Shown one piece after another: positions 769 through 13,904 of a DNA stretch of 64,000 bases (positions are counted from its first letter, which is position 1; the number at the start of each line of letters is the position of its first letter). The notes below the pieces were generated by a model that searched no databases, was not told where the DNA came from, and was given only the letters and a program-made list of their open reading frames with translations. The translations under genes and the position numbers were made by a program. Origin of the DNA: Hydrogenophaga sp. (GTDB taxonomy: Bacteria; Pseudomonadota; Gammaproteobacteria; Burkholderiales; Burkholderiaceae_C); assembly GCF_026125785.1 (NCBI RefSeq), contig NZ_JAHCKL010000011.1, forward strand, positions 58,477-122,476. Reading direction: 5' to 3'.

Positions 769-1293
769 TCACTCGTCCCGCGTGATTTCCTCGGCGCGAG
801 CGGTCAGCTTCTCCAGCGTGCGCGTGAAGCTGGCCAGTTCCTCGGCGCTCAGCACATCGAACAGGCGTCGGTTCTGGGCTTCCGAATGCGGAGCGATGGA
901 AGCGAAGAGATCTTCACCCGCTCGGGTCAGCCACAGCAGCATGCGACGGTGGTTGTCGGGGTCGCGCGCCTCCTCGACCAGGCCGCGCTTGCGCAACGCG
1001 ATCACCGCACGGCTGATGTTCATCGGGTGCAGGCCCGTCGCGGCGCTCACGTCCTGGGCCGCGCTGCCTGGCCGGCTGGACAGCACCACGATGGAGCGCC
1101 ACTCGTTCAGCGTCAGCGCATGCTGCCGCGCGAACTGGCCAAAGAAAGGGCGGCTCATCAGGTTGGTCAGCTTGAGCAGGCGAAAGCCCGCCATGTCCGG
1201 CGCCAGTGTCTGTGCGCCTTCGGTCGCGCGCTCGGCCACCCTGGCGCGGCGGGCGGGCGAGGCGGTGCTGGAGGATCGGGACAGGGCTTTCAT
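769..1293 (-). CDS. MarR-family transcriptional regulator of the adjacent catabolic operon
   Basis: A 174-residue winged-helix regulator of the MarR family. The core motifs are visible: FFGQFARQHALTLNEWRSIV at the start of the DNA-binding domain, a helix-turn-helix around AAQDVSAATGLHPMNISRAV, and the wing RDPDNHRRMLLWLT. I chose the ATG at 1293 because the DNA upstream to 1488 is the operator region and codes for no family-like sequence. The gene is divergent from the ABC transporter operon, and the 147-base gap holds a tandem palindromic repeat (1357-1390), the usual layout for a MarR repressor that responds to a substrate of the operon it faces. The ligand is unknown. Confidence 0.88.
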   Translation of the reverse strand: MKALSRSSSTASPARRARVAERATEGAQTLAPDMAGFRLLKLTNLMSRPFFGQFARQHALTLNEWRSIVVLSSRPGSAAQDVSAATGLHPMNISRAVIALRKRGLVEEARDPDNHRRMLLWLTRAGEDLFASIAPHSEAQNRRLFDVLSAEELASFTRTLEKLTARAEEITRDE

Positions 1294-1355
1294 GGTGTCG
1301 GACGGAAGGATACGGGGGACATTCTGTGCGCAAGACGCAAGTTTAGGGTAAACAC

Positions 1356-1390
1356 CGATATCGATAACATTTGATATCGATAACATTTGA
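1356..1390. promoter_or_regulatory. tandem operator between MarR gene and ABC operon
   Basis: Two exact, abutting copies of the 16-mer GATATCGATAACATTT lie at 1357-1372 and 1373-1388. Each contains TGATATCGATAACA or nearly so; that 14-mer is an imperfect palindrome (12 of 14 bases match its own reverse complement). A one-base variant recurs at 4145-4158 before the AtuA gene. The position between divergent genes suggests the MarR protein binds here and controls both. The binding itself is inferred. Confidence 0.75.
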
Positions 1391-1440
1391 CCCATATCAA
1401 ACAGCTTGCCTCTGCGAGCCCACCCAGCAGGAGACTTCCG

Positions 1441-2349
1441 ATGCCATCCAGACCTTCCCACTCCCGTGCCCTGGCGGGTGCTGGCCACTTGCTGTACCGC
1501 GCGCTGTGCCTGGGTGCATTGACTTGGGCCCTTGGCACCACCGCGTCCGCTCAGACGGTTCAGGCCCCGTTCTTCGACCGCCTGCCCGCATCGGTCAAAA
1601 GCACCAAGGTGCTGCGCATGGTCGGTGACTCTTTTGCTCCCTACCGCATCGTGGGAGACGATAGCAAGACCGTCACCGGGATCGACGCCGACATGGCGCG
1701 GGCGCTGGAGCCGTTGCTGGGCGTGAAGATCGAGCTGACCATTGTCAGCAACCTGCCGGCCATGCTGGCCGGCATTGACACCGGCCGCTACGATTTTTCC
1801 GCCGGTCCGCTGCTATCCACCAAGGCGCGCGAAGAGCGCTACGACATCCTGACCTGGCTGCTGAGCAAACCGGCTTTCGTGTTGCCTGTGGCTGGCGGGC
1901 GCAAGACCTCCCGGCTGGAGGACCTGTGCGGCCTTCGCATTTCCTTCCCTGCAGGTTCCGCGCAAGAGGAATATGCGCGCAAGGTCAGCGAACGCTGTGT
2001 CAGCAGCAAACAGCCGACCATGCAACTGGTGCCGCTGGCGGACCAGAATGCCACCGTGCTGGCGGCTCAGTCGGGCCGGGCCGATGTGGCCGGGATGCAG
2101 CTCGCTGCCGCGCTGTACCTGCAACAGCGCAACCCTGGCAAGTTCACCATACAGACGGACGAGACCGACGGTCTGGGCATCCTCAACCAGGGCTTCGTGC
2201 TCAAGAAGAATGCCGAGCTCAGCCCGGTGCTGCACGACGCGCTCAAACAGGTGTGGGCGTCCGGTGAATACGGGCGCATCATGGACAAATGGGGCCTGAC
2301 GCTGGCCAAGGCACCCGAACCCCGCTTGAACCCATCCAGCGGAAAGTGA
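1441..2349 (+). CDS. ABC transporter substrate-binding protein, amino-acid type (SBP_bac_3)
   Basis: A 302-residue periplasmic receptor for a polar-amino-acid-type ABC importer. A long Sec signal peptide ends near residue 37 (TTASA). The mature part begins LPASVKSTKVLRMVGDSFAPY and continues with IDADMARALEPLLGVKIELT, the standard opening of family 3 solute-binding proteins. I chose the ATG at 1441 because CAGGAGA lies 7 bases upstream; the in-frame ATG near 1387 falls inside the operator. It is the first gene of an operon with the permease (10-base gap) and ATPase, facing the MarR gene. The ligand is unknown: the fold takes amino acids and also other small carboxylates, amines and opines. 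Confidence 0.88.
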   Translation: MPSRPSHSRALAGAGHLLYRALCLGALTWALGTTASAQTVQAPFFDRLPASVKSTKVLRMVGDSFAPYRIVGDDSKTVTGIDADMARALEPLLGVKIELTIVSNLPAMLAGIDTGRYDFSAGPLLSTKAREERYDILTWLLSKPAFVLPVAGGRKTSRLEDLCGLRISFPAGSAQEEYARKVSERCVSSKQPTMQLVPLADQNATVLAAQSGRADVAGMQLAAALYLQQRNPGKFTIQTDETDGLGILNQGFVLKKNAELSPVLHDALKQVWASGEYGRIMDKWGLTLAKAPEPRLNPSSGK

Positions 2350-2359
2350 TGCGCCAGCC

Positions 2360-3292
2360 ATGACACAGGGAAGCGTTGCCATGCCTGTCCATCCCCGCCT
2401 GTCCGCAGCCGCAGGTGCCACCGAACCGGTGGACGTCGCGACGGCCCGCCACCGCACGAGTCCGCTGCGCTGGGGCATGACCTTGCTGCTGTTGGTGGTG
2501 GCCCTGCAGGTGGTCTACTTCCTCTTCACCAACCCGCGCTTCGAATGGGCCGTGGTGTGGAAGTACCTGTTCTCGGTCAACATCTTGCTGGGCCTGGGCA
2601 CCACTCTGATGCTCACTGCGCTGGCGATGGTGATCGGCATCGTGATCGGCACCATCGCCGCGCTGGCCCTGATCTCGGACTTCAAGCCGGGTCGGTGGGC
2701 GGCCCAGACCTATCTGTGGGCCTTCCGCGGAACGCCCCTGCTGATCCAACTGATCTTTTGGTACAACCTGGCGTACCTGATTCCGAACATCTCCATCGGG
2801 CTGCCTTTCCTGCCGCCACTGGCGCAGTGGTCGACGAACACGGTCATCACGCCCTTTCTGGCCGCCTTGCTGGGCCTGGGCCTGGCCGAAGGGGCCTACA
2901 TGACGGAGATCGTGCGGGCAGGGCTGTCGTCGGTGGACCCGCGCCAGCACGATGCGGCCAAGGCTCTGGGCATGACGCCATCCAAGTCTTTCTTCCGCAT
3001 CATCTTTCCGCAGGCCATGCGTTTCATCATTCCGCCCACGGGCAACCAGATCATCGGCATGGCCAAGGCCACTGCGCTGGTCAGCGTGATCGCCATGAAC
3101 GACCTGCTGCATTCGGTGCAGATCATCTACAACCGGACCTATGAAATCGTGCCGCTGCTGCTGGTGGCCGTGTTCTGGTACCTGGCGGTCATCACCTTGA
3201 TGTACGCCTTCCAGTCCCGGCTGGAACGCCACTACTCCAAAGGCCATCGCCGCGATGCCGCGCCGTCCGCCACGCCGACCGGACAGGCATAG
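2360..3292 (+). CDS. ABC transporter permease, His/Glu/Gln/Arg type
   Basis: A 310-residue inner-membrane subunit. After a cytosolic N-terminus of about 35 residues come roughly six hydrophobic segments. The coupling loop has the EAA pattern EGAYMTEIVRAG...DAAKALGM, where the ATPase docks. The FRGTPLLIQL motif is typical of polar amino acid permeases (HisMQ/GlnP group). A single permease gene implies a homodimer. It lies 10 bases after the receptor gene and 15 before the ATPase gene. The first ATG (2360) is used; an internal ATG at 2381 is possible. Confidence 0.9.
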   Translation: MTQGSVAMPVHPRLSAAAGATEPVDVATARHRTSPLRWGMTLLLLVVALQVVYFLFTNPRFEWAVVWKYLFSVNILLGLGTTLMLTALAMVIGIVIGTIAALALISDFKPGRWAAQTYLWAFRGTPLLIQLIFWYNLAYLIPNISIGLPFLPPLAQWSTNTVITPFLAALLGLGLAEGAYMTEIVRAGLSSVDPRQHDAAKALGMTPSKSFFRIIFPQAMRFIIPPTGNQIIGMAKATALVSVIAMNDLLHSVQIIYNRTYEIVPLLLVAVFWYLAVITLMYAFQSRLERHYSKGHRRDAAPSATPTGQA

Positions 3293-3307
3293 GTCGTTGG
3301 AAATTCC

Positions 3308-4099
3308 ATGCAGAACCTTCATTCTTCTTCCGGCCCGCAGGGCCACGTGCTCCGACTGCACAAGATCGTCAAACGCTATGGCAGCCTTCAGGTTCTCAAC
3401 GAAGTCTCTCTGGACATCGACGAAGGCGAGGTGGTCGCGGTGATCGGCCCATCGGGTTCGGGCAAGTCGACGCTTGTGCGTTGCATTCACCAACTCGAAA
3501 CCATTGAGGGGGGCTCCATCTGCCTGAACGGCGAACTGCTGGGCTACCGGCAGGAGGGCGAGCATCTTCGCGCCCTCAGCCCCAGAGAGCTGGCCCGGCA
3601 GCGGCAGCAATTGGGCATGGTGTTCCAGCAGTTCGGCCTCTTTCCCCACATGACGGTGGAGGAAAACGTCATGGAAGGACCGGTGCAGGTGCTGGGTGAC
3701 ACCGTTGCCGATGCGCGCACACGTGCCCACCACCTGCTGGGACGGGTGGGGCTGGCCGACAAGGTGCATGCCTACCCGCAGATGCTCTCCGGCGGGCAGC
3801 AGCAGCGCGTGGCGATTGCCCGCGCCCTGGCGATGCGGCCCAAGGTCATGCTGTTCGACGAACCGACCAGCGCGCTGGACCCCGAGTTGGTCGGTGAGGT
3901 TCTCAACGTGGTGTCGGACCTGGCCAAGGCGGGCAAGACGATGGTGATCGTCACGCACGAGATCGCCTTCGCCCGTGAGGTCGCGTCCCGTGTCGTGTTC
4001 ATGGAGGGCGGGCGCATCCTGGAACAGGGTGACGCACGTGAAACCTTGTCGAACCCGAAGACCGAGCGTCTGCGCACGTTTCTCTCCAGGGTGATGTGA
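3308..4099 (+). CDS. ABC transporter ATP-binding protein, polar amino acid type
   Basis: A 263-residue ATPase that drives the importer. Walker A is GPSGSGKST (residues 47-55), the signature LSGGQQQR is at 160-167, Walker B MLFDEP is at 181-186 and the switch histidine H217 lies in VTHEIAF. Full-length and very like GlnQ/HisP. It ends the transport half of the island. After it come 95 bases that contain the second operator copy, so the catabolic half may start from its own promoter. Confidence 0.92.
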   Translation: MQNLHSSSGPQGHVLRLHKIVKRYGSLQVLNEVSLDIDEGEVVAVIGPSGSGKSTLVRCIHQLETIEGGSICLNGELLGYRQEGEHLRALSPRELARQRQQLGMVFQQFGLFPHMTVEENVMEGPVQVLGDTVADARTRAHHLLGRVGLADKVHAYPQMLSGGQQQRVAIARALAMRPKVMLFDEPTSALDPELVGEVLNVVSDLAKAGKTMVIVTHEIAFAREVASRVVFMEGGRILEQGDARETLSNPKTERLRTFLSRVM

Positions 4100-4144
4100 G
4101 CGGGTCGCGGCGTCTCTCCTTTTTTTTGCCCACTCAGTAACTTT

Positions 4145-4158
4145 TGATATTGATAACA
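4145..4158. promoter_or_regulatory. single operator copy before the AtuA gene
   Basis: TGATATTGATAACA differs by one base from the TGATATCGATAACA units at 1356-1390. It lies in the 95-base gap between the ATPase gene and the AtuA gene, about 37 bases before the ATG. The likely role is a second, weaker site for the same MarR regulator, allowing separate control of the catabolic genes. Found by eye only. Confidence 0.65.
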
Positions 4159-4194
4159 AGCAGTGCCAATGAAGCCATCAAGGAAACCCAAGAC

Positions 4195-5565
4195 ATGACT
4201 CGCCATATCCGCTACCTGTCGCCCACCGGCGTGTTGGGCGTGGGCTTCTCCGAGAGCCACTTTCGCGCGGCACTCTCGCGTGGCCTGGCCTTCATCGGCT
4301 GCGATGCGGGTTCCACCGACGGTGGCCCCGCCAACCTGGGCGGCAACAAGCCTTTCTTCTCCCGAGCGGCGATCAAGCGCGACCTGCGCATCCTGGTCAC
4401 CGGTGCGCGTTCCATCGGGGTGCCCCTGCTGATCGGCTCGTGCGGCGGCAGCGGCGGCAACTGGAACCTGAACTGGGTGCGCGAGATCGTGCTGGAGATT
4501 GCCCGCGAAGAGGACCTGCATTTCCGTATCGCTGTGATCGAGTCCGAGCCGCCACGCGAGCTGCTGCTGAAGAAGTACCGCGAGGGCCGCATCCGCCCGC
4601 TGGACCCGGCGCCCGAAATCAGCGAGGCCGTGCTGGAGAATGCCGACCACATCGTTGCCATGATGGGCGCGGAAGCGTACGTCGCCGCGCTGGAGGGCGG
4701 GGCGGACGTGGTCCTGGCCGGCCGTTCCACCGACGCCGCCATCTTCGCCGCGCTTCCGGTGGCGCGGGGCTTTCCGCCGGGGCTGTGCTGGCATGCCGCC
4801 AAGATCATGGAGTGCGGTGGCGCCGCGGTGGTCACGATGGAAAAGCCCGAAGGCATGATCTGCACGATCACCGACGAGCACTTCACGCTGGAGCCGGTGA
4901 GCCCTGTGCAGCGCTGTTCGCCGCTCAGCGTGGCCGCGCACGCGCTGTACGAAACTGCGGACCCCTACCGCATGCTGGAGCCTGGTGGCGAAATGGACCT
5001 CACCGGGGCACGCTACGAGGCCGTCAACGACCGCGAGGTGCGCGTCAGCGGCAGCGAGTTCCGGCCCATGCCCTACACCGTCAAGCTCGAAGGCGCGAGC
5101 CTCATCGGGTACCGGGCCATGGTGCTCGGTGGCGTGCGGGACCCCGTGATCCTGGAGCAGTTCGACACCTGGTTCGATGGCCTCAAGGACCACATCGCCG
5201 AAAACGTCGAGGCGGTCTACGGGCCGACCATCCGCGGGCAGTACCAGATCCACTACAAGCTGTACGGCAAGTCCGGTGTGATGGGCGAGCGAGAGCCCTG
5301 TGCCGGGCAGACGGGTCACGAGATCGGGCTGCTCATGGTGACGCTGGCGCAAAGCCAGGAAGTGGCCTACGCGATTGCGGGGCAGGCCGCGCACATGGTG
5401 CTCCACCACGCGGTTCCGCAGTGGCAGGGCCTGCTCTCCAACCTGGCTTTCCCCATCGCGCCGCATTTCTGGAACCTGGGCGAGGCCTACCAGTTCGTGC
5501 TCAACCACGTGGTCGAACTCGACCATCCGCTTGAGCTGCATCCCATCCGGTACGAGGAGGTCTGA
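4195..5565 (+). CDS. AtuA-family protein (DUF1446), acyclic terpene utilisation-like
   Basis: A 456-residue protein of the AtuA/DUF1446 family, named after a gene needed for citronellol and geraniol use in Pseudomonas; its reaction is not known to me. Visible hallmarks are the glycine-rich N-terminus (IGCDAGSTDGGPANLGG near residue 32), SCGGSGGNWNLNW, and VLAGRSTDAAIFAALP. The ATG at 4195 follows an AAGGAAACC stretch. It is followed after 2 bases by the DUF4387 gene, its usual partner. The other atu genes, the geranyl-CoA carboxylase subunits AtuC and AtuF, are absent, so this is not the known terpene pathway. It probably acts on a carboxylate or CoA-type intermediate, which is inference. Confidence 0.85.
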   Translation: MTRHIRYLSPTGVLGVGFSESHFRAALSRGLAFIGCDAGSTDGGPANLGGNKPFFSRAAIKRDLRILVTGARSIGVPLLIGSCGGSGGNWNLNWVREIVLEIAREEDLHFRIAVIESEPPRELLLKKYREGRIRPLDPAPEISEAVLENADHIVAMMGAEAYVAALEGGADVVLAGRSTDAAIFAALPVARGFPPGLCWHAAKIMECGGAAVVTMEKPEGMICTITDEHFTLEPVSPVQRCSPLSVAAHALYETADPYRMLEPGGEMDLTGARYEAVNDREVRVSGSEFRPMPYTVKLEGASLIGYRAMVLGGVRDPVILEQFDTWFDGLKDHIAENVEAVYGPTIRGQYQIHYKLYGKSGVMGEREPCAGQTGHEIGLLMVTLAQSQEVAYAIAGQAAHMVLHHAVPQWQGLLSNLAFPIAPHFWNLGEAYQFVLNHVVELDHPLELHPIRYEEV

Positions 5566-5567
5566 CC

Positions 5568-5888
5568 ATGCCACGTCTGCGCGACATCGCCAAACTCATC
5601 CGCACGAAGAACGCGGGCCCGTTCCAGCTCACGCTGGACATCATGTTTCCCGACGCCTCCAGCTACGAACACGTTGTGGCCAGCGGTGTGATCAACAAGG
5701 CTGCCATGGCCGCCTTCTTCAAGGTCGAAGAGTCCCGGGTCCGGCTTTTCAACTACGCGCCGGGCAATGCCATCAAGGTCACCGTGCCTCGTCTGGTGCC
5801 GTCCGGCGATCCGGCCGATACCGACCTCTTCGGTGGGCAGCAGTTCGGCCCTTTGGTCGACATCGAAGTACCCCCACGCCAGTCCTGA
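5568..5888 (+). CDS. DUF4387 protein, AtuA-associated small subunit
   Basis: A 106-residue protein that starts 2 bases after the AtuA gene with an AGGAGG-like site inside the AtuA end. The sequence (IRTKNAGPFQLTLDIMF..., then GVINKAAMAAFFKV) matches the DUF4387 family, commonly encoded next to or fused with AtuA-type proteins. The tight spacing suggests the two form one complex, much as a large and a small subunit do. Function unknown; no cofactor motif is visible. Confidence 0.8.
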   Translation: MPRLRDIAKLIRTKNAGPFQLTLDIMFPDASSYEHVVASGVINKAAMAAFFKVEESRVRLFNYAPGNAIKVTVPRLVPSGDPADTDLFGGQQFGPLVDIEVPPRQS

Positions 5889-5935
5889 TCGCGCGCATCA
5901 GGCCTCTCCGCATTCCTACCCGCAAAGACAACGCC

Positions 5936-6952
5936 ATGAGCAAGACCATTCTTCGCAGCATCGTCCAGGATGCCACCGCCTGGAAAGGCGCCGACGTGCG
6001 CAACGACAGTTCCTGGATCTACCACTTCACCCCAAGCGAACTCGGCGAGATCGACACCGCCTTTCGCCAGGTGCGGGCCAACGGCCTGAGCTGGGGCGAT
6101 TTCGGGAAGGACGCGTTCGCGCTGCCGGTGCTGTCGGCCAAACTGGCCCGCATCGACGACCAGATCCGCAACGGCCGCGGCTTCGTGCTGCTGCGCGGCT
6201 TCCCGGTGCAGCGTTACACGCTCGACGACCTCAAGACCATCTACTGGGGTCTGGGGACGCACATGGGTCAGGTGATTTCGCACAACGTGGCCGGTGACTT
6301 CGTGGCCGCGGTCACCGACCTGGCCCTCAACTCGTCCGACCCGAACCGCCGCAACAACACCACCAACCAGCTGCTGGACCCGCACACGGACCTGGCCGAT
6401 GTGGTGGCGCTGTTGTGCGTGGAGAAGGCGCGCGAAGGCGGCATGAGCAGCCTGGTGAGCAGCGTGGCCATCCACAACGAGATCCTGCAGAACCACCCCG
6501 AGTACCTGGAGGTGCTGTACGAGGGCTTCTACCACGACTACCGGGGCTATGGCCCGAACGCGGACCCCAACGAAGTGACCGCCACGCCGATCCCGGTCTT
6601 TGAATACAACAACGGCCGCGTCAATTGCGCCTTTGCCAAGAAGATCATCGAGACCGGCGCCCACAAGCGCGGCGTTCCCCTGACCGCGCTGCAGCAGAAG
6701 GCGATCGACTACGTGCACGAACTGGGGACCCGCGAGGACATGCGCGTGGACATGATGCTGGAGCCCGGCGACATCCAGATCATCAACAACTACATCACGC
6801 TGCATTCGCGCAGCAACTACTTCGACCACGAGGACGGACGCAAGCGCTACCTGCTGCGCATGTGGATCAACCTGGAAGACAGCGTGCAGCTCTCGCCCGA
6901 CTTCGCCTCCTTCGTGCGGCGCGGCATTCCCGCCATCCGGCAGACCGCCTGA
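5936..6952 (+). CDS. TauD/TfdA-family Fe(II)/2-oxoglutarate dioxygenase
   Basis: A 338-residue oxygenase that should hydroxylate a small substrate using O2 and 2-oxoglutarate. The iron ligands are visible as H150-T-D152 (PHTDLADVV) and distal H290 (ITLHSRSNYFD), followed by the 2-oxoglutarate-binding arginine region RKRYLLRMW. The tail LRMWINLEDSVQLSP resembles the TfdA/TauD group and gamma-butyrobetaine-like members. It lies 47 bases after DUF4387 and 24 before the PrpD-like gene, inside the same operon. Hydroxylation next to a carboxylate or amine would suit a substrate carried by a family 3 receptor, but the substrate cannot be named. Confidence 0.88.
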   Translation: MSKTILRSIVQDATAWKGADVRNDSSWIYHFTPSELGEIDTAFRQVRANGLSWGDFGKDAFALPVLSAKLARIDDQIRNGRGFVLLRGFPVQRYTLDDLKTIYWGLGTHMGQVISHNVAGDFVAAVTDLALNSSDPNRRNNTTNQLLDPHTDLADVVALLCVEKAREGGMSSLVSSVAIHNEILQNHPEYLEVLYEGFYHDYRGYGPNADPNEVTATPIPVFEYNNGRVNCAFAKKIIETGAHKRGVPLTALQQKAIDYVHELGTREDMRVDMMLEPGDIQIINNYITLHSRSNYFDHEDGRKRYLLRMWINLEDSVQLSPDFASFVRRGIPAIRQTA

Positions 6953-6976
6953 GCAACCTCGCACCACGGACCCGCC

Positions 6977-8356
6977 ATGACCGCCGTCACACAGACACTG
7001 GCCCGCTTCGCGGCTGAACTCCGCTTCGACGACCTGCCCACCGAGGTGGTGCAGCGCACCCAACTGCTCGTCATGGATCTGAGCGGCATCATCATCCGCT
7101 CGCAGACGCTGGATTCGACCCTCGTGCTCAAGGAAACGCTGCGCGACCTGGGGTTGAACGGCGGCCACATCCAGGTACAGGGCAGCCGCGAACGCTGGCT
7201 CCCCCAGGCGGCCGCGCTGCTGGCAGGGGCCGCCGCGCACAGCCTGGACTTCGATGACACCCATGCACCCGCGCAACTGCATCCGGGGGCGCCCGTCATT
7301 CCGGCCGCGTTGGCCGCCGCACAGATGGTGGGCGCTGGTACCCGGGAGTTGATCGCGGCCATCGTGGCGGGGTACGAGGTCATGATCCGTGTGGCCCTGG
7401 GCCTGCCCGTCCTCAAACACGGCGAGCGCGGTTACCACCCCAGCGCCACGGTGGGTGTGTTCGGCGCCACGGCGGCCGCCGGCAACCTGCTGGGTCTGAG
7501 CCCTGTGCAGATGGAACACGCCTTCGGCACCGCGCTCAGCGAGTCCGCGGGCACCGGTCAGTTCGTGGTGAACGGCGCATGGACCAAGCGCTTCCACGTG
7601 GGCAACGCGGCCGCTGGCGGCGTGCTGGCGGCCGCGCTTGCGCGACGGGGCTACACAGGGGCCACCCAGGCCTTCGAGGGCAAGGAAGGATTCTTCCATG
7701 TCTATTCCCCCGAACCGCAACCCGAGAAGGCGGTGCAAGGCCTGGGCAGCACCTGGGAAATTCTGCGTGCCGGCCTGAAACCTTACCCCTGCTGCCGGGG
7801 CATCCATGCGCCGCTGGACGCGGTGATGGCTTTGCACGAGCGGCACGACATCGACATCCACCGCATTCAGTCGGTGCGTGTGGGGCTGGCCCGCCGCAGC
7901 GTGTACGTGGTGGGCATTCCGCAGGAGCGTCGGCGCGATCCGAAAAACGTGGTGGACTGCCAGTTCTCCACCCACCTGTGCCTGTCGATTGCGCTCAAGC
8001 ACCGGCGCATGGGCTGGGACGATTACGAGCCGGCCCTGGCCGACCCGGACATCCGTTCACTGATGCAGCGCATCGACGTTTACGAAGACGCCGAATGCGA
8101 GGCCAACTTTCCCACCGCGTTCTCGGGCGTGGTGGAGATACGCACCACCGACGGCCAGACCTGGCGTGAGTTCATCTACCAGCCGCGCGGCGAACCCGAA
8201 ACCATGCTCACCGCCGCCGAACTGCGTGCCAAGTTCAGCCTGCTGGTGCGCGACACGCTGGGCGAGTCCGGCGAGTCCGCACTGTTCGATGCGATACAGG
8301 CCATGGCCCAGGGCAAGCCGGTGGGCTCTCTGTTCGTGCAGCCTCTGGGCCACTGA
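6977..8356 (+). CDS. MmgE/PrpD-family protein (dehydratase/isomerase-like)
   Basis: A 459-residue member of the MmgE/PrpD family, which includes 2-methylcitrate dehydratase, cis-aconitate decarboxylase and iminodisuccinate epimerase. Hallmarks are the N-terminal helical domain (LDFDDTHAPAQLHPGAPVIP near residue 89), GYHPSATVGVFGATAAAGNLLG, and the NAAAGGVLAA helix. Full-length. Members act on di- or tricarboxylates by dehydration, epimerisation or isomerisation. Here it sits between a dioxygenase and an aldolase-like gene, so it may process a hydroxylated carboxylate before C-C cleavage. That order is inferred from the gene neighbours. Confidence 0.85.
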   Translation: MTAVTQTLARFAAELRFDDLPTEVVQRTQLLVMDLSGIIIRSQTLDSTLVLKETLRDLGLNGGHIQVQGSRERWLPQAAALLAGAAAHSLDFDDTHAPAQLHPGAPVIPAALAAAQMVGAGTRELIAAIVAGYEVMIRVALGLPVLKHGERGYHPSATVGVFGATAAAGNLLGLSPVQMEHAFGTALSESAGTGQFVVNGAWTKRFHVGNAAAGGVLAAALARRGYTGATQAFEGKEGFFHVYSPEPQPEKAVQGLGSTWEILRAGLKPYPCCRGIHAPLDAVMALHERHDIDIHRIQSVRVGLARRSVYVVGIPQERRRDPKNVVDCQFSTHLCLSIALKHRRMGWDDYEPALADPDIRSLMQRIDVYEDAECEANFPTAFSGVVEIRTTDGQTWREFIYQPRGEPETMLTAAELRAKFSLLVRDTLGESGESALFDAIQAMAQGKPVGSLFVQPLGH

Positions 8357-8362
8357 ACCGCC

Positions 8363-9124
8363 ATGAGCCCTGCCATCACCGCCGAAGAACGCGCGCTGCG
8401 CACCGAACTCGCGGCCTGCTACCGCGTTTTCCACCTGCTCGGCTGGACCGAGCTCATCTACAACCACATCACGGTGCGCCTGCCCGGCCCCGAGAAGCAC
8501 TTTCTGATCAACCCGTTCGGCCTGCACTACAGCGAGGTCACGGCCTCCAACCTGGTGCGCGTGGACCTGTCCGGCCGCACCGTGGGCTCTTCCAACTGGC
8601 CGGTGAACCCGGCTGGCTTTACCCTGCACTCGGCCATCCACCAGGGCATTGGCGAAGCGCACTGCGTGATGCACACGCACACCACCGCGGGCTGTGCGGT
8701 TGCCGGTTGCCGCCAAGGGTTGACCATGGACAACTTCTACGCCGCGCAACTCCATGGCCGGGTGGCGTACCACGACTTCGAGGGCATCACGGTGCACGCG
8801 GACGAAGGGCCCCGGGTGGTGCGTTCCATCGGTGGACGCCAGGCTGTCGTGCTGCGCAACCATGGCCTGCTGGCCTGGGGCAGCAGCATCCCGCAGGCCT
8901 TTGCGTACCTGTGGACCTTGCAGCGCGCGTGCGAAATCCAGGTGGCCGGCGCGGCGCTTGGGCCGGCGCTGCCCATTTCCGAAGCCATCCAGATCCAGGC
9001 CAGCGCCGATGCCCTGCAGTTTGACCCGGCGCACGGCGCCGGCCGCGACGTGTTCGCGGCACTGACGCGGCAGGTCGAGCGCATCGACCCGTCCTACCGG
9101 GACCTGGACCCCGCGCGGGACTGA
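8363..9124 (+). CDS. class II aldolase/adducin-family protein
   Basis: A 253-residue protein with the class II aldolase/adducin fold. The metal-binding histidines H104 and H106 (VMHTHTTAG) and H167 (LRNHGLLAWG) are present. The serine-glutamate motif that supplies the catalytic acid in fuculose-phosphate aldolase is replaced by NPAGFTLH (about 82-89), as in many adducin-like members, so the reaction need not be a sugar-phosphate aldol cleavage. It starts 6 bases after the PrpD-like gene and ends 2 bases before the next gene, so the genes are almost surely co-translated. Metal-dependent C-C cleavage or decarboxylation is a reasonable guess. Confidence 0.85.
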   Translation: MSPAITAEERALRTELAACYRVFHLLGWTELIYNHITVRLPGPEKHFLINPFGLHYSEVTASNLVRVDLSGRTVGSSNWPVNPAGFTLHSAIHQGIGEAHCVMHTHTTAGCAVAGCRQGLTMDNFYAAQLHGRVAYHDFEGITVHADEGPRVVRSIGGRQAVVLRNHGLLAWGSSIPQAFAYLWTLQRACEIQVAGAALGPALPISEAIQIQASADALQFDPAHGAGRDVFAALTRQVERIDPSYRDLDPARD

Positions 9125-9126
9125 GC

Positions 9127-10131
9127 ATGACAAAGATCTGCATCTACGGACTCGGCGCCGTAGGCGGCCTGCTGGCCGCACGGCTGGCGCGCTCGGGCGT
9201 CGCGGTGAACGCGGTGGCGCGCGGTGCCACGCTGGCCGCGGTGCACGAGAAGGGCCTTTCACTGCGCGAGACAGTGCAAGGCCAGCCCGTCACCACCCAG
9301 CATGCCGTCCATGCCACGGACAACCCGGTTGATCTGGGCGTGCAGGACGTCGTGGTGGTGGCCGTCAAGACCACCGGTCTGGCCGGCGTGGCCGCCGGCA
9401 TTGCACCCTTGATGGACGAGCACACCACCGTGTTGTCGGCCATGAACGGCGTGCCCTGGTGGTTCTTCCATGGCATGGCCCCGGAACTGGCGTCCTTGAA
9501 ACTCGACAGCGTGGACCCGGGCGGCGCCCTGTCGCGCGCCATCAGGCCCGAACGGGTGGTCGGCTGCGTCACACACCTCTCCGCCACCACGCCGGCGCCG
9601 GGCGTCGTGCAGCATGTGGCGGGCCAACGGCTGATCGTCGGCGAGCCCGTTGGCGGCGCCGATTCCGCGCGCAGCAGGCACCTGATCCAGTTGCTGCGCA
9701 ACGCGGACTTCGACGTGGACCCCGCGGCATCCATCCAGCGCGAGATCTGGTTCAAGCTGTGGGGGAACATGACAGTGAACCCCATCTCGGCGCTCACCGG
9801 CGCCACGGGCGACCGCATCCTCGACGACGAACTCGTGCGCGCTTTCATGTCGCGCTGCATGCGCGAGTCGGCCGCCATCGGCGAGCGCATCGGCCTGCCC
9901 ATCGATGCCGATCCCGAGGGCAGGCATGCCGTGACGCGCCAACTCGGTGCCTTCCGCACTTCGATGCTCCAGGACGCCGAAGCCGGCAAACCCCTGGAGA
10001 TCGATGCGCTCGTTCGCGCCGTGGTGGAGATTGCCCGGCAACTGGGCGTGCCCACACCGGAGATCGACACCCTGCTGGGGCTGGCGCGGCTGAAGGCCCG
10101 CGTGGCGGGCCTGTACCCGGACGCCGCCTGA
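9127..10131 (+). CDS. ketopantoate reductase-like NADP(H)-dependent oxidoreductase
   Basis: A 334-residue protein of the 2-dehydropantoate 2-reductase family. The N-terminal Rossmann motif GLGAVGG is at residues 8-14. The catalytic lysine K210 and the conserved N218 are visible in FKLWGNMTVNPISALTG, with a later LEIDALVRAVVEIA. Its position inside a catabolic operon, 2 bases after the aldolase-like gene, argues against pantothenate synthesis as its main job; paralogues in such operons reduce or oxidise other 2-oxo or 2-hydroxy acids. A role on the 2-oxo product of the aldolase-like enzyme is inferred. Confidence 0.82.
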   Translation: MTKICIYGLGAVGGLLAARLARSGVAVNAVARGATLAAVHEKGLSLRETVQGQPVTTQHAVHATDNPVDLGVQDVVVVAVKTTGLAGVAAGIAPLMDEHTTVLSAMNGVPWWFFHGMAPELASLKLDSVDPGGALSRAIRPERVVGCVTHLSATTPAPGVVQHVAGQRLIVGEPVGGADSARSRHLIQLLRNADFDVDPAASIQREIWFKLWGNMTVNPISALTGATGDRILDDELVRAFMSRCMRESAAIGERIGLPIDADPEGRHAVTRQLGAFRTSMLQDAEAGKPLEIDALVRAVVEIARQLGVPTPEIDTLLGLARLKARVAGLYPDAA

Positions 10132-10170
10132 CCTTTTCTCGTTCCTTTCATTCATCGACGGAGACAACAC

Positions 10171-11187
10171 ATGAAGAAATCCGGTGCGGCCCTGGCCGCC
10201 ATCCTCGCCCTGCAAGTCCCAGCCTGGGCGCAGTCCGACGTCAACGTGTTCGGCCTGCTGGACGTCAACGTGCGCAACATCCGCGTGGGCCCCACGTCGA
10301 AGACGGAGATGCACAACAGCAGCGTGGCGGGCAGTCGGCTGGGTTTCCGGGGCAGCGAGGATCTGGGCGGCGGCATGAAGGCCAGCTACTGGCTGGAGGC
10401 CGCGCTCAGCCCCGACACCGGCACCACCGCACCCCGCTTCTTCCACCGGCGCTCCACCTTGAGCCTGAGCGGCTCCATGGGGGAACTGCGCCTGGGACGC
10501 GACCTCACGGCAAGCTTCCAGGGCTTCGTCTATTACGACCCCTTCGCTGTCAACGGCGTGGGCTCGGTGCAGAACGTGTTCGGCGGCGCGGGCTACACCC
10601 TGGGCAGCGGCGCCGTCACGTCCAGCCGCACCGACAACGCCATTTCCTACTTCCTTCCGTCGAACCTGGGCGGCTGGAACGGCCAGTTCATGCACGCGCT
10701 GGGCGAAGGCGTGGCGGGCAGTGCCTACACCGGCTTGCGTGTCGGCTACGCGCAAGGGCCGATCGATGTCTCCGTGGCCTACTCCGAGACCGACGCCGTG
10801 GGCAGCGGCAAGTTCACGGTGCGCACCATCGGTGGCACCTACGACTTCAAGAGCGTCAAGCTCACGGCGGTCCACATCCAGAACGCCTGGCTGCCGCGCA
10901 AGGAGAACGTGTGGTTGCTGGGCGCCGCCGTGCCCGTGGGTGACGCCGGCACGCTGCGGGCATCCTACGTGCCCAAGAACGCCTCGGGCGGCGGCACGGA
11001 CGCCAACGACGCGCGCCAGTTCGCGGTGGGTTACCTGCACAAACTGTCGAAACGCACCATGCTGTATGGCACCTACTCGCGCATCCAGAACAAGGGCGCG
11101 TCCAACGCCACCGTGGGCAGCACGCTGGCAGGTGCCGCCGGCCAGAACTCGCGTGGCGTGGAACTGGGGATCGTGCACGCCTTTTGA
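10171..11187 (+). CDS. outer-membrane porin, betaproteobacterial type
   Basis: A 338-residue outer-membrane porin. The signal peptide is MKKSGAALAAILALQVPAWA, cut near residue 20. The mature start, QSDVNVFGLLDVNVRN, and the motif SRLGFRGSEDLGGGMKASYWLE are typical of 16-strand general porins of Burkholderiales, and the last residue is phenylalanine, the usual outer-membrane assembly signal. The ATG at 10171 follows GGAGA. It lies 39 bases after the reductase gene and probably ends the catabolic operon, letting the substrate cross the outer membrane. Confidence 0.9.
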   Translation: MKKSGAALAAILALQVPAWAQSDVNVFGLLDVNVRNIRVGPTSKTEMHNSSVAGSRLGFRGSEDLGGGMKASYWLEAALSPDTGTTAPRFFHRRSTLSLSGSMGELRLGRDLTASFQGFVYYDPFAVNGVGSVQNVFGGAGYTLGSGAVTSSRTDNAISYFLPSNLGGWNGQFMHALGEGVAGSAYTGLRVGYAQGPIDVSVAYSETDAVGSGKFTVRTIGGTYDFKSVKLTAVHIQNAWLPRKENVWLLGAAVPVGDAGTLRASYVPKNASGGGTDANDARQFAVGYLHKLSKRTMLYGTYSRIQNKGASNATVGSTLAGAAGQNSRGVELGIVHAF

Positions 11188-11243: not shown

Positions 11244-13904
11244 TCACGCGCTGACTGCCCTCAAGATCTCTTCCGCCGTCCCCGGCGCATTCATCGCCTC
11301 GGGCTTGCCGCCCGCCTGCGACACGGCGTCGCGCAGTGCCTCGAACACGCTGATGGCCAGCATGAAGGGCGGTTCGCCCACGGCCTTGCTGCCGTGCACG
11401 TTGTCTTCGCGGTTGGCTTCGGGCCAGAGGTCGACCCTGAAGTGTTCGGGCACGTCGCCGGTGGCCGGGATCTTGTAGGTGCTCGGGGCGTGGGTCTGCA
11501 GGTAGCCCTTGTCGTTCCACACCAGTTGCTCGGTGGTGAGCCAGCCCATGCCCTGGATGAAGCCGCCTTCGATCTGGCCGATGTCGATGGCCGGGTTGAT
11601 GCTGTGGCCCACGTCGTGAAGGATGTCGACCTTGAGCACGCGGCTTTCACCGGTGAGGGTGTCGATGGCGACTTCGGTGCAGGCGGCGCCGTAGGCGAAG
11701 TAGTAGAAAGGCCGGCCCGTGAGGGTGGTCTTGTCGTAGTGGATCTTGGGCGTGCGGTAGAAGCCGTCGCTCCAGAGCTGGATGCGGTTGGCGTACGCGG
11801 CGCTCACCACGTCCTCGAAGCGGCGCGTGCTGCGCGGGGTGATGACCCGGCCGCCGGCGAAGCGCACCGCGCCGGCTCCGCAGCCGTCCAGGCCGGCGAC
11901 GAAGGCAGCGAGGTTGTCGCGCACGTGGCGCGCGGCGAACTGTGCGGCACGGCCATTGAGGTCCGTGCCGCTGCTGGCCGCGGTGGCACTGGCGTTGGGG
12001 ATCTTGCTGGTGTCGGACGCGGTGGAGAGCACGCGCTCGAACGGGATGCCGAGTTCGTCGGCCACGATGGCGGCGACCTTGGTGTTCAGTCCCTGGCCCA
12101 TTTCGGTGCCGCCGTGGTTCACCTGCACGCTGCCATCGGTGTAGACGTGCACCAGCGCGCCGGCCTGGTTGAACAGCGTGGCGGTGAAGCTGATGCCGAA
12201 TTTCACCGGCGTGAGCGCGATGCCTTTCTTGATGACTGGGCTCTTCGCGTTCCACGCGGCGATCTGCGCGCGCCGTTCGCGGTATTGGCTGGTGCGTGCG
12301 AGCGTGGTGATGAGCGGGTCGAGGATGTTGTCCTCCACCTTCATCTGGTAGTGGGTGACATTGCGGTGGGTGGCCTGGGCTTCGACAGGCTCAGCCCGAA
12401 CGGGGGATGGTTCAGCCCGAACGGGGGATGGTTCAGCTCGGACGGAGGCATGTTCCGCTCGAACGGAGGCATGTTCCGTTTGAGCAGGGGAGTTTTTTGA
12501 CCGAAGTGGCATGCCCCGTTCGCCCTGAGCGTGTCGAAGGGCTCGCGAGGTGGGTTCGTCGCTGTAGAGGTTGCGCAGCCGCACGTCCAGCGGGTCCAGG
12601 CCGAGGCGGCGGGCGACGTCGCCCAGGATGCGTTCGATGACGATGACGCCCTGCGGGCCGCCGAAGCCACGGAAGGCGGTGTGGCTCTGCGTGTGGGTCT
12701 TGCAGCGGTAGCTGGAGATGGCCACGTCTTCCAGGAAATAGGCGTTGTCGGCGTGGAAGATGGCGCGGTCGGCCACGGGGCCGGAGAGGTCGGCGCTGAA
12801 GCCGCAGTTGGCCAGCATGTCCAGCTCCAGGCCGCAGAGCAGGCCGCTGTCGTCGAAGCCAACGCGGTAGTGGTAGGCGAAGGGGTGGCGCTTGCCGGTG
12901 ACCATGAAGTCGTCGTCGCGGTCCAGCCGCAGCTTGACCGGGCGCTTGAGCCGGTTGGCGGCGATGGCGGCCCACACCGCGAGGTGGCCGGCCTGGGTTT
13001 CCTTGCCACCGAAGCCGCCGCCCATGCGCCGGCATTCCACGGTCACGGCGTGGTTGTCCAGGCCGAGCGCGTGCGACACCCAGTGCTGCACCTCTCCGGG
13101 GTGCTGGGTGCTGGAGTACACCCACCACTGGTCCTGCTCCAGAGGCAGCACATAGGCCACCTGGCCTTCGAGGTAGAAATGCTCCTGGCCGCCGATCTCG
13201 AACGCGCCTTCGGCCACGTGCGGCGCGCGGGCCAGCGCGGCCTTGGCGTCGCCCCGGTTCACATGCACGGGCGGCAGCACATAGCTCTGGCGCGCGTGCG
13301 CTTCGTGCACCGAGACCACGGCGGGCAGGGGTTCGATGTCGAACCTGACCAGCCGGGCGGCGCGGCGCGCGGTCATCACATCATCGGCCACCACCAGCGC
13401 GGCCACCTGGCCGAGGAATTGCACGGTGTCGGTGGCGAACACGGGCTCGTCGTGCGCGAAGGCGGCCAGGGTCTTGTCGCCAGGGATGTCGCCCGCGCCG
13501 AAGACGCCGCGCACGCCGGGCACGGCCAGTGCGGCGGACGTGTCCATACCGCGCAGCCGGCCGTGCGCCACGGGTGAGCAGACCGGCGCGGCGTGCAGCG
13601 TGCCGCGCACTTCGGGGATGTCGTCGATGTAGGTGGCGCCGCCGGCGACCTGGGCGCGTGCGCTTTCGTGGAAGCGGGAGACGCCTGCGGCCTGCCCGGT
13701 ATTCTCCGTTCGCCCCGGGGGTGTCGATGGGTCGGGCTGCGCTGGGGTGAGGGCTTCGACAAGCTCAGCCCGAACGGAAGTTGGCTCAGCTCCAACGGAC
13801 GTTGGCTCAGCTCGAACGGACGTTGGCTTGGTTCGGGTGGAAGCTGGCTTGGCCTGGGTGGAAGCAGGCTTGGCCTGAGCGTGGGGTTGATCGCGCGCGT
13901 TCAT
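11244..13904 (-). CDS. xdhB: xanthine dehydrogenase, molybdopterin-binding subunit
   Basis: An 886-residue large subunit that oxidises hypoxanthine to xanthine and xanthine to urate with XdhA. The molybdopterin motifs are visible: GGGFGGKET near residue 297, GGTEMGQG further on, and the GEPPFMLA segment near residue 845 that carries the catalytic glutamate. It is longer than usual (about 780 residues) because of two in-frame low-complexity blocks encoded by repetitive DNA: residues about 11-52 and about 450-510. The frame is open through both. The start overlaps the xdhA stop by four bases (ATGA). No xdhC, the cofactor-loading chaperone gene, follows. Confidence 0.93.
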   Translation of the reverse strand: MNARDQPHAQAKPASTQAKPASTRTKPTSVRAEPTSVGAEPTSVRAELVEALTPAQPDPSTPPGRTENTGQAAGVSRFHESARAQVAGGATYIDDIPEVRGTLHAAPVCSPVAHGRLRGMDTSAALAVPGVRGVFGAGDIPGDKTLAAFAHDEPVFATDTVQFLGQVAALVVADDVMTARRAARLVRFDIEPLPAVVSVHEAHARQSYVLPPVHVNRGDAKAALARAPHVAEGAFEIGGQEHFYLEGQVAYVLPLEQDQWWVYSSTQHPGEVQHWVSHALGLDNHAVTVECRRMGGGFGGKETQAGHLAVWAAIAANRLKRPVKLRLDRDDDFMVTGKRHPFAYHYRVGFDDSGLLCGLELDMLANCGFSADLSGPVADRAIFHADNAYFLEDVAISSYRCKTHTQSHTAFRGFGGPQGVIVIERILGDVARRLGLDPLDVRLRNLYSDEPTSRALRHAQGERGMPLRSKNSPAQTEHASVRAEHASVRAEPSPVRAEPSPVRAEPVEAQATHRNVTHYQMKVEDNILDPLITTLARTSQYRERRAQIAAWNAKSPVIKKGIALTPVKFGISFTATLFNQAGALVHVYTDGSVQVNHGGTEMGQGLNTKVAAIVADELGIPFERVLSTASDTSKIPNASATAASSGTDLNGRAAQFAARHVRDNLAAFVAGLDGCGAGAVRFAGGRVITPRSTRRFEDVVSAAYANRIQLWSDGFYRTPKIHYDKTTLTGRPFYYFAYGAACTEVAIDTLTGESRVLKVDILHDVGHSINPAIDIGQIEGGFIQGMGWLTTEQLVWNDKGYLQTHAPSTYKIPATGDVPEHFRVDLWPEANREDNVHGSKAVGEPPFMLAISVFEALRDAVSQAGGKPEAMNAPGTAEEILRAVSA
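12373..12546. repeat. repeat-made insertion inside xdhB (central)
   Basis: Two copies of a known-looking dispersed repeat, CTTCGACAGGCTCAGCCCGA plus ACGG (12380-12403) and its inverted relative CCGTTCGCCCTGAGCGTGTC plus GAAGG (12516-12540), flank a tandem array of about 21-bp units. Translated on the minus strand, the array gives heptads such as EHASVRA and EPSPVRA. The block falls between the RNLY and NVTHYQ segments of XdhB, where relatives have only a few residues, so it looks like an in-frame insertion. Confidence 0.8.
13749..13874. repeat. 21-bp tandem repeat in the xdhB N-terminus
   Basis: Six 21-bp units (126 bases) encode the heptads AKPASTQ, AKPASTR, TKPTSVR, AEPTSVG, AEPTSVR and AELVEAL on the minus strand. 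The unit at 13754-13777 is a one-mismatch copy of the dispersed repeat (CTTCGACAAGCTCAGCCCGA plus ACGG). The array precedes the first recognisable XdhB residues, so it is an N-terminal extension that grew by tandem duplication. Confidence 0.8.

Follow-up and report, generated by a model that had tools for sequence, protein, structure and literature searches.

The operon at positions 769 to 11,187 of a 64,000-nucleotide stretch of a Hydrogenophaga sp. genome (the window) most likely imports and splits a small dicarboxylic acid. It encodes a porin, an ATP-binding cassette (ABC) importer, an AtuA/DUF4387 pair, a TauD-type Fe(II)/2-oxoglutarate (2OG) dioxygenase, an MmgE/PrpD protein (MmgE), an aldolase-fold protein (Ald) and a ketopantoate-reductase-like enzyme (KPR), beside a MarR-family regulator. 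We tentatively interpret it as a coenzyme A (CoA)-free route for the breakdown of a 2-substituted succinate, through oxygenation, chemistry at C2 and cleavage of the citramalate lyase (CmlA/CmlB, CmlAB) type, and place this interpretation somewhat short of an even chance. From sequence, we infer every reaction, the order of the steps, the substrate and the binding of MarR.

The proposed substrate is a succinate substituted at C2 (substituent R). This 1,4-dicarboxylate would enter through the porin and the ABC importer, to judge from their families, and would be processed without CoA. The TauD-type enzyme would add a hydroxyl group using O2 and 2-oxoglutarate, and MmgE would act at C2, where dehydration followed by rehydration is more probable than a two-base epimerisation; together the two steps would give 2-hydroxy-2-R-succinate. 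The AtuA/DUF4387 pair would split this compound as citramalate is split, yielding acetate and the 2-oxo acid R-CO-COOH. KPR would reduce the oxo acid and Ald would cleave or decarboxylate the product, with MarR acting at 16-bp repeats.

All of the genes named in the original prediction are present where it placed them, as confirmed by coordinates and Pfam matches, in a single block with short gaps and MarR divergent. The sequence of events that it proposed (oxidation, isomerisation or dehydration, C-C cleavage, reduction) was a fair guess that the data refine and do not prove. It knew of no named pathway with this combination, and term searches of an open-licence library likewise gave us no paper with the gene set. 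Taken as a whole, the pathway seems not to have been described, but its central pair of enzymes is now partly understood.

The AtuA/DUF4387 pair and citramalate lyase

AtuA and DUF4387 match both subunits of PDB entries 9ERQ and 9EVF, which are named citramalate lyase A and B; 9EVF, released on 2025-10-08, has ADP and pyruvate in its title. Window AtuA aligns with 9erq_A over residues 1-440 of 456 at 39% identity (E value in Table 1). Its AlphaFold2 model matches 9evf_A with a TM-score of 0.93, and the large subunit has the fold of CmlA. Family-invariant residues are largely common to the window AtuA family and CmlA (34 of 36), and two differ in CmlA. A 94% homologue lies among methylaspartate-pathway genes (locus L126). 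The earlier claim that AtuA/DUF4387 lacks a known reaction is superseded by these entries and this homologue, and the main hook of the operon, an unexplained reaction, is largely gone.

In excerpts of PMC4682846 (2015), the gene is still called DUF1446, with no function assigned, and what becomes of citramalate is described as unclear. In an open-licence library, no paper contains the word DUF4387 (a paper behind 9ERQ may exist elsewhere), and among the matches listed no title points to citramalate lyase; the AtuA papers there, judged by titles and abstract openings, deal with terpene use or with other subjects. Our searches place AtuA/DUF4387 proteins in several phyla, with annotations that follow terpene use or DUF names.

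The genome that holds the window has a single DUF4387. Another AtuA, only very distantly related and of the classical Pfam type (415.5 bits), lies on a different contig of that genome (L002, C23:101615-102985). Among plasmid records with an AtuA match, 12 of 51 are from Klebsiella. One K. pneumoniae plasmid (L127) carries AtuA/DUF4387 with aldehyde dehydrogenases and fumarate hydratase, and a Cupriavidus oxalaticus plasmid (L131) has two AtuA/DUF4387 pairs on one stretch, by citrate synthase and tricarboxylate-receptor genes.

Conservation of the operon

Species genomes were scanned with the AtuA alignment, and the best 80 of 144 candidates were kept as loci. The six-gene core AtuA-DUF4387-TauD-MmgE-Ald-KPR retains its order in 6 of these 80 loci beyond the window: L045 (Hydrogenophaga), L047 (Paraburkholderia solitsugae), L048 (an Alcaligenaceae metagenome-assembled genome, MAG), L049 and L096 (Advenella) and L050 (Cupriavidus lacunae). 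Because this order recurs, the grouping of the core genes exceeds chance. Identity to the window across the six loci is 72-88% for TauD and 66-87% for MmgE, and L026 holds a truncated copy of the core. The expectation that the genes travel together thus holds for the core and fails in part for transport: the importer is present in 5/80 loci and absent from L047 and L050. In L047, a major facilitator superfamily (MFS) carrier sits between MarR and AtuA. A porin homologue (25-28% identity) occurs in 4/80 loci and a MarR homologue (56-76%) in 7/80. The operon is rare, in that among 399 sampled genomes of the order TauD exceeds 47% identity only in the window's own genome.

The KPR gene of L047 (14898-15934) is split over two frames, with pieces at 52% and 65%; this could be a decayed gene or a sequencing error.

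The MmgE/PrpD protein and the probable class of substrate

Excerpts of PMC12290011 state that a four-carbon 1,4-dicarboxylate is common to the MmgE/PrpD substrates known so far, and they name the residues of the site that holds it. All six (H88, D91, H102, H154, K204 and K268) are retained in the window protein and six orthologues (7/7), so the compound handled by the operon is probably a substituted succinate.

The best PDB relative of MmgE is iminodisuccinate epimerase (2HP0/2HP3, E 5.9e-45), from which an epimerase could be proposed. We dropped this as first choice: the catalytic Tyr145 of the epimerase, the second base of its proposed mechanism, corresponds to Gly149 in window MmgE, and to Gly, Ser or Ala in all seven window-clade members. 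Since this tyrosine is absent, a hydro-lyase-type or other one-base enzyme is more likely than a two-base epimerase. The tyrosine, which both epimerases of the family use, is present in 14 of 46 AtuA-linked MmgE rows, including one each at the TauD-bearing loci L062, L079, L100 and L120.

PDB entry 7bra (B. subtilis 'IRG1') has the epimerase tyrosine as well as all six residues of the dicarboxylate site. This suggests that it may be an epimerase and fits the doubt, expressed in the excerpts of PMC12290011, about its role as a cis-aconitate decarboxylase.

Oxygenases near AtuA

The partner survey covered 102 AtuA loci (101 distinct), 80 of them the top matches to a single query alignment and 15 found through DUF4387. 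DUF4387 adjoins AtuA in 101, and the one miss is a contig end. In 28 loci, a 2OG dioxygenase from one of two subfamilies stands no more than 4 kb from AtuA, and in 26 of them it shares the strand of AtuA. Of all 30 such hits, 28 are <2 kb from AtuA, although the distance bins reached 10 kb (200 locus sides covered, falling to 124). An NtaA/DmoA-family flavin mononucleotide (FMN) monooxygenase occurs within 1 kb in five loci (four distinct), and AtuA/DUF4387 stands directly behind it at L051:2117-9400, L029, L030 and L040. The two oxygenase types occur together in none of the 102 loci, although with 28 and 5 these are too few for significance. Mapped onto the tree of AtuA, the 2OG label requires 8 changes, of which starred branches force at least 7; the FMN label requires 3. 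MmgE/PrpD is near AtuA in 35 loci, and a TcuA-like dehydrogenase lies within 4 kb in two. Close to the pair in the Arthrobacter locus L051 are also genes named by eye as isocitrate lyase and malate synthase.

The best PDB relative of window TauD is FrbJ (5eqn, E 2.6e-53). The HxD...H metal ligands align with those of FrbJ and are conserved in alignment A2. We take FrbJ (5EQN) to be the 2OG hydroxylase of FR-900098 biosynthesis, a phosphonate enzyme. The nearest TauD relatives in the 399 genomes reach 47% at best, and MmgE is near them in 3 of the 20 regions fetched. An Acinetobacter KPR-Ald-TauD group was rejected as the same module, its proteins being only 29% (KPR), 48% (Ald) and 36% (TauD) identical.

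We read AtuA/DUF4387 as one lyase for which several routes may prepare 2-hydroxy-2-R-succinate, by hydration in the methylaspartate pathway and by oxygenation here. A more general proposal, possible but held with less confidence, is that AtuA/DUF4387 are CoA-free lyases for 2-hydroxy-2-R-succinates at large, fed in aerobes by interchangeable oxygenases (two 2OG subfamilies or the NtaA/DmoA-type FMN monooxygenase). The window operon would then be one such system, acting on a substituted succinate that is not a known growth substrate.

Ald and KPR

The PDB relatives of Ald include TqaM (E 6.6e-31) and NovR (E 6.6e-21), and it is closer still to 3OCR and adducin. By E value, it is nearer 3OCR, adducin and TqaM than the E. 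coli-type fuculose-phosphate aldolases. An N-x-x-G-F-x-x-H-S-x-I-H stretch is common to TqaM and Ald, and the PDB names NovR a 'decarboxylase'; we take TqaM and NovR to be class II aldolase-fold oxidative decarboxylases. As to an assignment to ketopantoate reductase PanE, KPR exceeds the cut-offs of two subfamily models and of no equivalog model. As a guess, KPR could reduce a 2-oxo acid and Ald then cleave the product or decarboxylate it oxidatively. The conservation of both genes suggests that both are needed, so R would not be methyl alone.

Relatives of Ald and KPR also lie side by side without AtuA, in a Vitreoscilla hpa cluster and in Caballeronia SBC2. In the latter, a GlcD-like flavin adenine dinucleotide oxidase gene, below the GlcD cut-off, is beside them on the opposite strand. 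A KPR relative occurs in an hpa-type cluster of Sphingobium.

Weighing the proposed pathway

Several observations count against the substituted-succinate pathway. It does not explain the amino-acid type of the importer, a one-permease ABC system. In a quick tree, window AtuA and 9ERQ CmlA fall in different starred clades, and because of this separation the substrate of the window pair may differ from that of CmlAB. The set of 102 loci is biased. Half of its 28 2OG loci form one tight betaproteobacterial MAG clade (L063, L065, L067-L070, L072-L074, L076, L077, L080, L081 and L118) with a different TauD subfamily, taurine-dioxygenase-like, 62-100% identical to the L076 copy and 3-135 bp from AtuA. 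A further 42 of the 102 have none of the searched-for partner genes within 4 kb. TauD alone is no predictor of AtuA, since none of the 20 regions fetched around TauD relatives contains AtuA. The Ald/KPR step is a guess because relatives of the two pair up without AtuA.

The alternative that survives best, unlikely as we consider it, is that the reaction of AtuA/DUF4387 here differs from that of CmlAB, its substrate being, for instance, a 3-hydroxy acid that lacks a succinate backbone. The operon would then be real and the pathway logic wrong. Such a difference would accord with an identity of 39%, the separate clade and the two family-invariant residues that differ in CmlA, but it sits poorly with the 34 of 36 that are shared and with a neighbouring MmgE that retains the dicarboxylate-site residues.

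Slightly less probable is a substrate among heteroatom-linked succinates (iminodisuccinate-like aminopolycarboxylates, or sulfonated or thioether succinates), in which the oxygenase would cut a C-N or C-S bond. This would account for the amino-acid type of the importer and for the best match of MmgE, iminodisuccinate epimerase. It would also suit the related loci in which an FMN monooxygenase replaces TauD, and L051 with its taurine/sulfonate-type binding protein (below its cut-offs). Hydroxylation of heteroatom-linked succinates, however, would lead to their collapse to oxaloacetate and leave AtuA/DUF4387 without a task, and the epimerase tyrosine is absent from MmgE.

We give slightly less credence again to a plain methylsuccinate/citramalate pathway, with R = methyl. 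TauD would make citramalate by hydroxylating methylsuccinate, MmgE would interconvert the methylsuccinate enantiomers and AtuA/DUF4387 would yield pyruvate and acetate. The homology of the pair to CmlA/CmlB is in keeping with this, and MmgE/PrpD methylsuccinate isomerases exist according to excerpts of PMC12290011 and PMC9875883. Yet KPR and Ald would idle in such a pathway, and both are retained in seven of seven complete loci (in L047 with KPR in two frames); the isomerase tyrosine is Gly, Ser or Ala in 7/7 window-clade MmgE proteins, and the window AtuA clade is not that of CmlA.

An aromatic version, with R of the hydroxybenzyl type (e.g., benzylmalate or benzylsuccinate) and an arylpyruvate passing through KPR and Ald into a meta-cleavage pathway, draws on several neighbourhoods. 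The mhp (3-hydroxyphenylpropionate) genes adjoin four of the loci: L049 (mhpA, B and D models), L048 and L096 (by Pfam hit, open reading frame starts and mhpB coordinates) and L050, where mhpE and mhpF models match. The L047 MFS carrier has the aromatic acid/H+ symport family as its best model, at 182 bits where the cut-off is 419. Close Ald/KPR relatives lie in the Vitreoscilla hpa cluster, and a KPR relative in the hpa-type cluster of Sphingobium. We regard it as the least probable of the four, for mhpB is over its cut-off in 5/8 operon genomes and in 0/3 of the window's genus (one only 79% complete), an absence that weakens the aromatic link, and the window importer is of the amino-acid type.

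Regulation and gene layout

The operon is probably MarR-controlled through the 16-bp repeats, at which MarR would bind; support comes from the recurrence of the repeat before the operon, together with the MarR homologues in 7/80 loci. This agrees with the original view of one catabolic operon under MarR control. A 29-bp form of the repeat, with at most 7 mismatches, lies upstream of the first operon gene in 7/8 loci, L050 included, where AtuA is the first gene. The best of five shuffles per locus had 9-14 mismatches, and six control loci gave 12-13 at best. The exception is L047, whose closest match, with 11 mismatches, does not beat the shuffles.

The open reading frame of the binding protein opens at TTG 1387, which abuts the operator-like repeat. 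ATG 1441, preceded by AGGAG, is the more likely start, and MarR probably starts at 1293. Gaps are 2 nt between AtuA and DUF4387, then 47, 24, 6 and 2 nt, with 39 nt from KPR to the porin.

Table 1. Features of the operon and its putative operator in window coordinates
Feature	Position	Strand	Evidence
MarR-family regulator	769..1293	-	Pfam MarR_2 27.3 bits, cut-off 27
Probable operator, 16-bp direct repeat GATATCGATAACATTT, 2.1 copies	1357..1390	.	TRF, 100% match
Periplasmic binding protein	1441..2349	+	Pfam SBP_bac_3 62.7 bits
ABC importer permease, amino-acid (PAAT) type	2360..3292	+	Pfam BPD_transp_1; TIGR01726 62.6 bits, cut-off 42.2
ABC importer ATPase	3308..4099	+	Pfam ABC_tran; nearest GlnQ/EhuA models, both below cut-off
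AtuA-family lyase large subunit (putative), CmlA homologue	4195..5565	+	Pfam AtuA 82.9 bits, cut-off 22.8; PDB 9erq_A E 8.3e-102
DUF4387 small subunit, CmlB homologue	5568..5888	+	Pfam 106.6 bits, cut-off 27; PDB 9erq_B E 6.1e-18
Fe(II)/2OG dioxygenase, TauD family	5936..6952	+	Pfam TauD 115 bits
MmgE/PrpD protein	6977..8356	+	Pfam MmgE_PrpD N+C
Class II aldolase/adducin-fold protein (Ald), PRK07044 subfamily	8363..9124	+	Pfam Aldolase_II; NCBIfam 342.3 bits, cut-off 207
Ketopantoate-reductase-like oxidoreductase (KPR)	9127..10131	+	Pfam ApbA N+C; NCBIfam PRK06522.1-4 416.7 bits, cut-off 223
Gram-negative porin	10171..11187	+	Pfam Porin_4 181.5 bits

Beyond the operon, an xdhB-like open frame (11244-13904, minus strand) contains two 21-bp tandem-repeat arrays, at 12391-12466 and 13763-13877. 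The second is near the start of the frame and could lie ahead of the true start codon. With at most 2 mismatches allowed, the word GGCTCAGCCCGAAC has 8 occurrences in the window where 1.33 are expected, and 5 of the 8 lie inside these arrays.

Significance and comparison with known systems

The new part is the oxygenase-coupled use of the AtuA/DUF4387 lyase family, together with this operon. Should the pairing with oxygenases prove functional, the single structure 9EVF would help to explain many clusters and the CoA-free splitting of 2-substituted succinates. The operon supplies candidates for tests: the enzyme pair, a dioxygenase that would make its substrate and a binding protein that could report that substrate.

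In the acyclic terpene utilisation (Atu) pathway, geranyl-CoA carboxylase and CoA-ester genes stand beside atuA; none of these is among the genes of 769-11187. FrbJ has a biosynthetic context, whereas that of window TauD is catabolic. Another comparison is with the itaconate/methylsuccinate cluster of Pseudomonas and Cupriavidus, in which, as excerpts of PMC9875883 and PMC12290011 describe it, an MmgE/PrpD protein acts on a free C5 dicarboxylate and a citramalate-type C-C cleavage comes at the end, as proposed here. That cluster is CoA-dependent, through Ict, Ich, Ccl and an acyl-CoA dehydrogenase. None of these families is among the genes scanned in 769-11187, and window MmgE lacks the isomerase tyrosine.

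Among the closest known systems is CmlAB itself. CmlAB has glutamate mutase, methylaspartate ammonia-lyase and fumarase as neighbours, whereas those of the window pair are an oxygenase, MmgE, Ald and KPR, and no methylaspartate-pathway family is among the genes scanned. Both subunits are nevertheless homologous to the window pair over nearly their full length, and the two genes are adjacent in both systems.

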